Below, piece by piece: positions 36,202-38,691 of a stretch of 64,000 bases of DNA. Numbering within the stretch: the first letter of the stretch is position 1; each line of letters starts with the position of its first letter. Origin of the DNA: Saccharospirillum sp. (GTDB lineage: Bacteria > Pseudomonadota > Gammaproteobacteria > Pseudomonadales > Natronospirillaceae); the NCBI GenBank assembly GCA_018402545.1, contig JAGYIL010000001.1, positions 2,232,001 through 2,296,000 of the forward strand, read 5' to 3'. The notes below the pieces were generated by a model that did not search any database, was not told the origin of the DNA, and saw only the letters and a program-made list of their open reading frames with translations. A program made the translations under genes and the position numbers.

Positions 36202-37146
36202 TCACCGACCTCCCGGAAATGGCAATTCAATGGCTTCGTTCATGACACCGGACAACAGTGCCTGGCGCGCATAAACGCCGTTTTCGGCTTGCTGGAAATA
36301 GTAGGCAAAGGGCGTCCGGTCGACACTGGGGTGTATTTCATCAACTCTGGGCAGAGGGTGCATGACCCGCAGGTTGGGACGTGCGTGACTCAGCATATCG
36401 GCCTTGAGAATAAACTGAGAGGCAATATGGGTGTATTCGGTTGGATCCAGACGTTCCTTTTGCACCCGGGTCATGTACAGCACATCCACCATGGGAATCA
36501 CTTCTTCCAGCGATTCGACGCGGCTGAAGCGAATGCCCATCGCCGTCAGATTGTCTTCAATGTAAGCTGGCATCGCCAGTGCATCGGGCGATACAAAATA
36601 AAAGGTGGGGTTGAAATGCCCAAGTGCCTGAGCCAGTGAATGCACGGTTCGGCCGTACTTGAGGTCACCGACCAGGGCCACCGAGAGACCATCGAGCCGG
36701 CCCTGGCATTCTGCGATCGAGACCAGATCGAGCAAGGTTTGGGTTGGGTGCTGGTTTGCGCCATCGCCACCATTGATGACCGGCACACCAGCCACTTCGG
36801 CCGCCAGCCGGGCCGACCCTTCCTGTGGGTGCCGCATGATGATGGCATCGGCATAGGAGGCAATCATTTGAATGCTGTCGGAGAGGGTCTCGCCTTTTTT
36901 GGCCGAGGTATTACCGCTGTCGGAAAAGCCGATCAACGTGCCGCCCAGGCGCTGCACCGCCGTTTCAAATGACAACCGTGTGCGAGTGGAGGCTTCAAAA
37001 AAACAGCTGGCGATCAGTCGGTCTTTCAGCAATGGCAACGGGCCGGAGTGTTTGAGCTCAGCCGAACGATTAACGATAAATTCGAGGTCGGTGCGTGACA
37101 GATCTCCGATGGAAATCACGTCTCGACGATACAGAGGGTTACTCAT
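36202..37146 (-). CDS. pyrB: Aspartate carbamoyltransferase catalytic chain
   Basis: 314 residues from the ATG at 37146. Carbamoyl phosphate sites are clear: [21 protein letters not shown] (STRTR), [23 protein letters not shown] (HPTQ) and [10 protein letters not shown]. It makes carbamoyl-aspartate, the committed step of pyrimidine synthesis. It is of the short PyrBI type, unlike the longer Pseudomonas PyrB. A TTG four codons upstream is a less likely start. It is the first gene of pyrBI. Confidence 0.97.
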
Positions 37147-37200: not shown

Positions 37201-37436
37201 CTCCCGCCCGCATCTTATTCCACAGTGTACCTTCTCCAACCCCGACGAAAGCAGCCTGCGAAAGCTTGTGATCGACTTCACAACAGTGTTCGGAAGGTGT
37301 AATCAGACGCCACCCGGGGTATACCCACGGTATACTTGAACATTGGTTGTTTTTTCTGATCGGATAGCTTGCTACTTTTTGTCTTGCCCGCTGTAACGGC
37401 ACCACAAAAACGACCAACAACCGATAAGGAAAGACG

Positions 37437-37754
37437 ATGTTGAAAAAAGGAATCATCACCCTGGGACTGGCCTTTAGCTGCCTACTGCCATTGGCACACG
37501 CCGAGGAAGCGCCCACTGAAACAGCCGCCGCAGAATCCGTAGTACTGCACGTTGACATCAACAATGACTCTGCCGAAAAACTGGCCGATCTGCTGGACGG
37601 CGTCGGCCTGGTAAGAGCCGAAGCCATTGTTGCCTACCGCGATGAATTCGGCCCCTTTATTGCCCCTGAAGACCTGATGAACGTACAGGGCATTGGGCCG
37701 GCCACGCTCGAGAAGAACCGTGATCGCATTCAAGTAGGCATGACCGACGAATAA
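37437..37754 (+). CDS. comEA: ComEA-like helix-hairpin-helix protein, periplasmic
   Basis: 105 residues: a signal peptide (MLKKGIITLGLAFSCLLPLAHA) with likely cleavage after residue 22, a short linker, then a helix-hairpin-helix DNA-binding domain (VDINNDSAEKLADLLDGVGLVRAEAIVAYRDEFGPF...LMNVQGIGPATLEKNRDRI). This matches the short ComEA family, which binds DNA in the periplasm during uptake; in many gammaproteobacteria its role in competence is unproven. AAGGA lies upstream of the ATG. It is the only plus-strand gene between pyrB and mtaD, and the CsrB-like RNA follows it at once. Confidence 0.9.
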   Translation: MLKKGIITLGLAFSCLLPLAHAEEAPTETAAAESVVLHVDINNDSAEKLADLLDGVGLVRAEAIVAYRDEFGPFIAPEDLMNVQGIGPATLEKNRDRIQVGMTDE

Positions 37755-38198
37755 CCACCGAATCAGGGATGGCACCACCGCCAGGGAACCGGCACAGACA
37801 GGCGTAGGGCCCGCAACACGCGGGAAACAGGGAAGACGGCAGGAAGCCGACACTCGACAGGGAGGCAACAGACAGGGATGTCTGCAGGGATGATTTTATC
37901 TGCCAAGGAAAGCAGGCTCAGGAAGATAAGCAGGCAGGGATGTGAGCTCAGGGAGGGCTGAACCAGGGAGGGCTGAACCAGGAAGGATCGAACCAGGGAA
38001 GAAGCTGTCAGGGACGGCATGGTCAGGGAGGATCAGCACGGATGACCAATAACCGGTTACGGGAAGCGGTCGTCGTTATAGGACGGGAAAACTGAGGGAG
38101 CGAGGTTCGCTTTGCCAGGGAAAAGGGACACCAGGAAGGTGTGACCTGAGCGGCATTCAACAACAACCGGGACATCTGATCAATGTTCCGGTTTTTTT
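37755..38198 (+). ncRNA. CsrB/RsmX-class RNA: array of GGA motifs with intrinsic terminator
   Basis: The stretch holds 17 CAGGGA or CAGGA motifs, starting at 37764, 37782, 37828, 37840, 37858, 37873, 37885, 37919, 37935, 37949, 37964, 37979, 37994, 38009, 38024, 38116 and 38132, plus about ten other GGA triplets. Many lie in hairpin loops: CAGACA-GGGA-TGTCTG at 37869, CGGC-AGGAA-GCCG at 37837, TGGTC-AGGGAG-GATCA at 38020, ACACC-AGGAA-GGTGT at 38128. It ends in a 9-bp stem and seven T (38167-38198). CAGGA(U/A)G and CAGGGA in loops are the CsrA-binding repeats of CsrB, whose length (about 370 in E. coli) is similar. No protein-coding frame fits. The 5' end is unknown; I see no clear promoter, so it may start inside or at the promoter of comEA. 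Found by pattern, not by database match. Confidence 0.8.
38167..38198 (+). terminator. Intrinsic terminator of the CsrB-like RNA
   Basis: CCGGGACAT and ATGTTCCGG form a 9-bp stem (one G-U pair) around a seven-base loop, followed by seven T. It is one of the strongest terminators in the window and defines the 3' end and strand of the RNA. Confidence 0.9.
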
Positions 38199-38212: not shown

Positions 38213-38284
38213 GTCATGGATCGCAGCTGGAATCTCGGTTCCCATAAACAGAAAATTCAGCCATTAGGCTGCTTTAACAATAAT
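38213..38284. repeat. Partial first copy of the tRNA-Gly-associated repeat
   Basis: About 70 bases match the second half of the 143-bp unit (GGATCGCA...GGAATCTCGGTTCCC, the AGCC(A)TTAGGCT hairpin and TAACAATAAT). They are more diverged than the two full copies: the first GGA hairpins are missing and the stem of the third is altered. Confidence 0.85.
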
Positions 38285-38427
38285 TGGAGCGGGATCAAAC
38301 GCCGGGAGCGTTTAACGACGCGTTAGCGCCCGTAGGGGCCATCACAGGGACGTGATGGATCGCAACGAGATGGAATCTCGGTTCCCATAAACAGAAAAAG
38401 CAGCCACTAGGCTGCTTTAACAATAAT
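38285..38427. repeat. 143-bp tandem repeat, copy A (tRNA-Gly 3' end plus hairpins)
   Basis: The unit starts with TGGAGCGGGA, the complement of the last ten bases of tRNA-Gly, and ends just before the next such block 143 bases later. Inside are four hairpins: AAACGC/GCGTTT with loop CGGGA, GCCC/GGGG-type, CCATCAC/GTGATGG with loop AGGGAC, and CGAGAT/ATCTCG with loop GGA. A terminator-type AGCAGCC/GGCTGCT hairpin follows, oriented to end minus-strand transcripts. It is almost identical to copy B. The unit lacks the tRNA body. Confidence 0.9.
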
Positions 38428-38570
38428 TGGAGCGGGATTAAACGCCAGGAGCGTTTAACGACGCGCTAGCGCCCGAAGGGGCCATCACAGGGACGTGATG
38501 GATCGCAACGAGATGGAATCTCGGTTCCCATAAACAGAAAAAGCAGCCATTAGGCTGCTTTAACAATAAT
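38428..38570. repeat. 143-bp tandem repeat, copy B
   Basis: Same layout and exact same length as copy A, abutting the intact tRNA-Gly. Here the first hairpin is perfect, with an 8-bp stem and loop CAGGA (38438-38458). Others are the AGGGAC-loop hairpin with 7-bp stem (38482-38501) and the GGA-loop hairpin with 6-bp stem (38509-38523). The last hairpin (about 38541-38562) serves as terminator of tRNA-Gly on the minus strand. The few differences from copy A mostly keep or improve stems. Confidence 0.9.
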
Positions 38571-38645
38571 TGGAGCGGGAAACGAGATTCGAACTCGCGA
38601 CCCCAACCTTGGCAAGGTTGTGCTCTACCACTGAGCTATTCCCGC
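38571..38645 (-). tRNA. tRNA-Gly (anticodon GCC)
   Basis: 75 bases with encoded CCA. Acceptor strands GCGGGAA and TTCCCGC pair fully; the anticodon stem CAACC/GGTTG encloses TTGCCAA, giving anticodon GCC. It is the second tRNA of a two-gene transcript and is followed by the repeats described at 38213-38570. Confidence 0.97.
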
Positions 38646-38691
38646 GTTTTTTGCCTCAAGAACAACAATGCCCTCAAAACAGAAAAATAAA

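Follow-up and report, generated by a model that had tools for sequence, protein, structure and literature searches.

Directly behind comEA in a Saccharospirillum genome lies a stretch of about 440 nt crowded with GGA motifs, and the question that it raises is whether this is a CsrA-binding RNA and, if so, whether it is a gene of its own or a part of the comEA transcript. CsrA sponges are usually free-standing small RNA genes switched on by GacA/UvrY. The window, the whole 64,000 nt stretch of DNA analysed, lies on contig 1 of a 4.25 Mb genome (G000; assembly 95% complete) that belongs to the genus of Saccharospirillum impatiens and to a family that we take to be Saccharospirillaceae. It was compared with five congeners (G001 to G005), of which G001 is S. 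impatiens (DSM 12546), with its comEA at locus L036.

A sequence-only reading of the window had proposed a large CsrB-type RNA that binds CsrA/RsmA and is encoded on the plus strand, and in a genome with both csrA and gacA/uvrY this prediction is still the best reading of the locus. We consider it very probable that the array is a CsrA-binding RNA. As to its origin, we favor with moderate confidence a sponge that would be made from the comEA transcript, an enlarged comEA 3'UTR expressed together with comEA and not by way of GacA.

The GGA array, its setting and its conservation

The features of the locus are collected in Table 1. A carbamoyltransferase gene, identified by Pfam scan, diverges upstream of comEA, and tRNA-Gly and tRNA-Glu genes follow the array on the minus strand; Rfam at its gathering threshold finds nothing in the whole window except three tRNAs. 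Beyond the terminator, three successive 143-nt units at 38225-38653 all include the 3' flank of tRNA-Gly, with 94% (second) and 62% (third) identity to the first unit. The first two contain a perfect hairpin, CCATCACAGGGACGTGATGG (at 38339 and 38482), that resembles a CsrA site, and S. impatiens has additional tRNA-Gly-like copies and one hairpin similar to CCATCACAGGGACGTGATGG. A flagellar and chemotaxis cluster, recognized by Pfam matches to CheB, CheA-like, FlhF-like, FlhA, FlhB, FliM, FliK, FliI-like, FliH and FliF proteins, occupies 3490-30409; the earlier suggestion of a flagellar link is not borne out, as the cluster is about 7 kb away and nothing connects it with the array.

Table 1. 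Coordinates of features at the comEA locus, in window positions.
Feature	Coordinates	Strand	Remarks
Carbamoyltransferase gene	36202-37146	-	Divergent, upstream of comEA
CRP-type site TGTGATCGACTTCACA	37267..37282	+	Upstream of comEA; exact match to TGTGA-N6-TCACA; identical in S. impatiens, one mismatch in G003
TATACT, candidate comEA -10	37331..37336	+	ATACTT invariant in G000, S. impatiens and G003
comEA	37437..37754	+	105 aa, helix-hairpin-helix protein; TIGR00426 77.5 bits (cut-off 53.1); PF12836 58.7 bits (cut-off 27)
GGA array, proposed CsrA-binding sponge in comEA 3'UTR	37764..38143	+	17 CAGG(G)A motifs
Hairpin CGGC-AGGAA-GCCG	37837..37849	+	CAGC-AGGAC-GCTG in S. impatiens: both sides of one pair changed, the rest kept
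Hairpin CAGACA-GGGA-TGTCTG	37869..37884	+	Compared with S. impatiens: 3 of 6 pairs stay, one of these changed on both sides; innermost and two outer pairs lost
Seven-motif run	37935..38029	+	14-15 nt steps: 37935, 37949, 37964, 37979, 37994, 38009, 38024
Two adjacent hairpins, AGGGA in loops	38006..38035	+	S. impatiens keeps 3 of 4 and 3 of 5 pairs
Hairpin ACACC-AGGAA-GGTGT	38128..38142	+	2 of 5 pairs kept in S. impatiens
Intrinsic terminator	38165..38198	+	11 pairs at 38165-38193, then seven T; stem and T run kept in S. impatiens

Between 37755 and 38198 there are 13 CAGGGA and 4 CAGGA motifs and 28 GGA triplets altogether, in agreement with the 17 motifs and further GGA counted earlier. When the region 37755-38160 was compared with 300 dinucleotide shuffles, the number of bare GGA (27) fell within the shuffled range (mean 19.3, maximum 29), whereas AGGGA (15 versus a mean of 2.7, maximum 8), CAGGRA (17 versus 1.3, maximum 6) and ANGGA (18 versus 6.0, maximum 12) lay outside all 300, and it is therefore the extended motif that is special. 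The motifs are confined to one strand, with 27 GGA on the plus strand and 0 on the complement of the same region, and no other 440-nt stretch of the window, taken in 20-nt steps on both strands, has more than 2 AGGGA. A search of the 4.25-Mb genome for AGGGA-N3..30-AGGGA-N3..30-AGGGA gave 6 matches, every one of them within the array; the reversed-pattern control of this search carries no information because AGGGA is identical read backwards.

The presence of GGA in the loops of small hairpins, as the earlier reading had described, was confirmed when loops were counted against an expectation in which the GGA cores were held fixed and the remaining bases shuffled. With stems of four pairs or more, six array GGA fall in loops, compared with 1.4 expected (0 of 500 shuffles reach 6), and at three pairs eight do, compared with 4.6 expected (p 0.07). 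The E. coli csrB control behaves likewise (9 versus 1.4 expected at four or more pairs), as does the S. impatiens array (6 versus 1.2), and the G003 array has 2 versus 2.4 expected at four or more pairs and 16 versus 7.6 at three. Folded as a whole, the 446 nt are only moderately above shuffles in stability (z -2.4, with 2 of 100 shuffles equally stable). The proposed terminator is present with its seven T, although its stem has 11 pairs and not the 9 bp given before.

The array is found behind comEA in G000, S. impatiens and G003. G000 and S. impatiens are 69% identical over the array, and GGA triplets outlast their surroundings, with 16 of 27 GGA unchanged compared with 72 of 271 other triplets. 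Several of the G000 stems are broken in S. impatiens, and the array seems to keep its GGA content more than its individual stems. G003 has 39 GGA in the 536 nt after comEA, although BLAST aligns no more than 14 nt of it with the G000 array. The array is dispensable, since G002 and G004 carry comEA without it and no comEA match was found in G005.

These comparisons bear on two readings in which the array is not a regulatory RNA at all. Neutral growth of a tandem repeat, or a skewed composition that mimics a CsrA array, is very improbable: the 15-nt repeat run, the absence of the array from two congeners and the ordinary number of bare GGA would suit it, but the extended motifs are far beyond the shuffles, the strand bias is complete, GGA are kept above background between G000 and S. 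impatiens, and other genera have compact GGA-hairpin sequences at this position. That the stretch codes for protein, on whichever strand, has next to no probability, and this reading was rejected. The minus strand has open reading frames here, two of them (85 and 64 aa) on the array and a third (128 aa) running across its start, but the 85- and 64-aa frames have no Pfam match, and the open frames shift in position and length in S. impatiens and G003.

Promoter elements and the Csr system of the genus

A strict sigma-70 consensus scan found no promoter either before comEA or for the array, and there is no GacA/UvrY box near the array. The CRP-type site upstream of comEA was called with TGTGA-N6-TCACA, which we take to be the CRP consensus, and we infer that its spacing from the TATACT element would fit a CRP-activated promoter.

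The earlier reading had pictured a free-standing intergenic CsrB gene. Such a gene would have a promoter of its own, within comEA or shortly behind it, and would be a neighbour of comEA by position only. In our view it is unlikely, although its size of about 400 nt, the number of its sites and its terminator would be like those of E. coli CsrB, and most known CsrB/RsmZ genes are free-standing. Against this, the first CAGG(G)A motif (37764) is only 9 nt past the comEA stop (37754), neither a sigma-70-like promoter nor a GacA box was found for it, other genera also have GGA-rich sequence after comEA, and a precedent for a sponge made from a comEA 3'UTR is reported in the RsmU RNA of Xanthomonas (PMC7694677).

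The window genome has one csrA gene, whose absence would have spoken against a sponge; its product of 64 aa is above the NCBIfam cut-off and carries the functionally relevant residues L4 and R44. Its gacA/uvrY scores 292 bits against an NCBIfam cut-off of 280. GacA-box csrB-type RNAs are present in all five congeners, at a conserved locus other than comEA that is flanked by a gene without a Pfam match and an S1/P1-nuclease-like gene, with two tandem boxes in S. impatiens and G003 and one in G002, G004 and G005; G003 has one further GacA-box RNA elsewhere in its genome. Judged by eye, some 165 nt separate the GacA box of these loci from a -10-like site downstream. In S. impatiens (L147, 736-1700) there are two tandem csrB-type RNAs with one GacA box each.

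Neither this locus nor its two flanking genes, both present in all five congeners, was found in G000. That the DNA query missed the locus says little because the same query also missed G002, which has it. When 16 contig ends and small contigs of G000 were compared with the S. impatiens contig that carries the region (G001:C35), two short DNA matches were obtained (123 nt at 75% and 69 nt at 86%), both from one place about 4 kb off the csrB region, and protein matches reached only 26-36%. The GacA-box pattern has one two-mismatch match in G000, on contig 5, and a CAGGAA candidate at G000:C5:277407 was set aside as a hexamer repeat. The locus may be missing through an assembly gap or through deletion. 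With GacA-box csrB-type RNAs elsewhere in all five congeners, and their flanks not found in G000, the suggestion that the array is the main sponge of this organism is not sustained.

Two further observations concern GacA boxes in this material. A GacA-box csrB-type locus in G008, a member of the same family with a 6.5 Mb genome (L148, 680-1490), is about 800 nt long with 84 GGA and repeats of about 62 nt, which is unusually large for a CsrB-type sequence. In G002 and G004 (L184 1501 and L186 1501), GacA-box-like sites occur by eye just upstream of a coding-like stretch, without a GGA RNA, and this stretch is possibly a direct GacA target.

comEA 3' ends in other genera

To judge from the family, the layout is not peculiar to the window genome. 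At least four ANGGA in the 200 nt past the comEA stop were found at 8 of 21 family loci (G000, G001, G003, G006, G008, G015, G020 and G021, in three genera) and, with the own genus left out, at 5 of 16, compared with 4 of 759 control 3' regions. The corresponding Fisher p values of ~3e-11 and ~2e-7 are optimistic because the rows are related; the controls, the 3' regions of the longest mechanical open reading frames of at least 100 aa at the same loci, include some that are spurious and are likewise not independent. By eye, G007 and G014 are weaker candidates. In the region L013 (G015) the predicted fold strings four GGA hairpins together (z -5.8), and the 19 ANGGA counted in L027 were rejected because they come from a simple repeat of the opposite strand. 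At E 0.1, BLAST gave no match between the window array and the comEA 3' regions of six family members of other genera (L011, L013, L015, L018, L027 and L033), and a search from L033 gave a 30-nt piece in common with L027 (83%, E 0.008).

A search of the order matched comEA in 267 of 293 genomes, and 165 comEA 3' regions were surveyed, 126 of them from order genomes and 39 from named loci (L036-L074 of 73, the 34 weaker ones being left out). Ten rows have at least four ANGGA in 200 nt, one of them (L036) duplicating the S. impatiens locus, and all belong to the family or to Stenotrophomonas; on the reverse strand there is one such row. These 165 regions do not show the layout to be widespread in the order. 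In a sample of the class, a Stenotrophomonas ComEA had matches in 273 of 369 genomes, and among the best 70 ranked loci two rows reach four ANGGA (L315 and L353, the count in L353 looking like chance) and one does so on the reverse strand. Of 235 rows, two with less than 200 nt downstream were dropped. The remaining 233 give weaker contrasts by other measures: 29 have at least six GGA, compared with 53 of the 759 controls, and 11 have at least three GGA hairpins, compared with 11 of the 759.

Outside the family, GGA-rich comEA 3' ends are seen in Stenotrophomonas (L063 4256-4560 and L067 2214-2530) and in L314-L316, from three related-looking genomes of one family in the same class. Two short GGA hairpins and a terminator-like stem form a 3' module common to all five. 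When a structure drawn from these five regions was scored on the same sequences, pairing was possible in 95.8% of cells, and 3 of the 19 pairs had changed on both sides, values matched by 4 of 500 and 12 of 500 shuffles, respectively. We regard them as putative RsmU-like, partly enlarged comEA 3' ends that would extend beyond the published Xanthomonas limit, with the qualification that L314-L316 could themselves be Xanthomonas. None of the five matches the window array at E 0.1, a comparison made with these Stenotrophomonas-type regions in place of X. campestris RsmU itself.

Since no BLAST similarity was found between the array and the regions of other genera tested, the layout may have arisen repeatedly. 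The balance is about even for the broader proposal that CsrA sponges have come to lie at the 3' end of comEA mRNA again and again in the Gammaproteobacteria, possibly by independent evolution, in Saccharospirillum and neighbouring genera on the one hand and in Xanthomonas, Stenotrophomonas and relatives on the other, and that in some lineages these have become CsrB-sized, so that expression of comEA would lower free CsrA independently of GacA.

Proposed mechanism and comparison with known systems

Under the favored reading, that of a sponge made from the comEA transcript, RNA polymerase would start upstream of comEA, probably under cAMP-CRP control, transcribe comEA and the array of about 440 nt, and stop at the terminator. 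The array could act whole or be cut from the mRNA, as RsmU is in Xanthomonas. Up to 28 GGA sites would be exposed in the small hairpins and the 15-nt-spaced run, and by binding several CsrA dimers they would lower free CsrA, so that CsrA repression would be relieved upon comEA expression. Such relief would provide another input, in addition to the GacA-driven csrB-type RNAs of the five congeners.

CsrA might instead act mainly in cis on the 3'UTR, protecting or destabilising comEA mRNA, with its titration a side effect. The Xanthomonas report finds comEA mRNA to be less stable without RsmA, and slightly reduced when the 3'UTR is deleted (PMC7694677), and a P. putida study lists a comEA-like transcript, PP_1813, among Rsm-bound RNAs (PMC7937890). 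However, the 28 GGA of the array, and the larger number in G003, are presumably more than cis protection should need, and we consider this explanation improbable.

If the sponge is made from comEA mRNA, there would be a direct line from DNA uptake to the switch between motility, biofilm and carbon storage, and the layouts in the family and the Xanthomonas group suggest that this wiring is wider than reported. That the layout also occurs in a different order of the class from Xanthomonas, in three genera and without similarity found, suggests repeated selection for the coupling, which becomes testable outside pathogens.

Among known systems, the array shares with the functional class of CsrB/RsmZ RNAs the many GGA and ANGGA, the hairpin loops, the terminator and a csrA gene in the genome; the usual GacA/UvrY box upstream is not present, and such a box is usual for these RNAs but not universal. 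CsrB itself (RF00018) is alike in its length (about 370-440 nt), in having at least 20 GGA with several in hairpin loops, in its intrinsic terminator, and in the presence of csrA and uvrY, and differs from the array, which lies directly behind comEA, has no GacA/UvrY box nearby and uses mostly CAGGGA cores. The Rfam CsrB model, one of the checks proposed for the earlier claim, gives the array 13.3 bits (E 0.3) against a cut-off of 71, compared with 380 bits for E. coli csrB, and the other Csr/Rsm families yield sub-threshold matches only, except for the E. coli control. This is not decisive because three GacA-box csrB loci of the genus (L147, L195 and L197) miss the Rfam cut-offs as well, and it appears that Rfam misses such RNAs. 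These loci and the others of their kind resemble the array in being GGA-rich and of CsrA-sponge type, and coexist with it in S. impatiens and G003, but they have a GacA box of their own and lie between two other genes. The array has no BLAST match at E 0.1 to the congener csrB loci compared, and one 17-nt match (E 0.04) to L148 of G008.

The closest precedent is RsmU (sRX061) of Xanthomonas campestris pv. campestris, which is reported to be processed from the comEA 3'UTR, to be cotranscribed with comEA and dependent on its promoter, to bind RsmA both in vitro and in vivo, and to be possibly limited to Xanthomonas (PMC7694677). In the same report its loss has no phenotype, and both RsmA binding and the overexpression effect remain when all four GGA are changed (PMC7694677). 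A literature search, with most subscription papers beyond its reach, returned no report of a comEA-3' sponge outside Xanthomonas and no paper on small RNAs in Saccharospirillum. Like the array, RsmU lies on the same strand directly 3' of comEA (it starts 25 bp past the stop, compared with 9 nt for the first array motif), ends in an intrinsic terminator, has GGA motifs and belongs to no Rfam family; its target, RsmA, is a homologue of CsrA. It differs in its size of 77/117 nt with 3-4 GGA, compared with about 440 nt and 28 GGA, and its transcription and binding were established by experiment, whereas those of the window array are predicted. The array is placed with RsmU by position and motif, not by shown homology. 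As such it would be a greatly enlarged form of an RsmU-like sponge, and the main interest lies in the recurrence of this arrangement behind comEA in two groups that are distant from each other.
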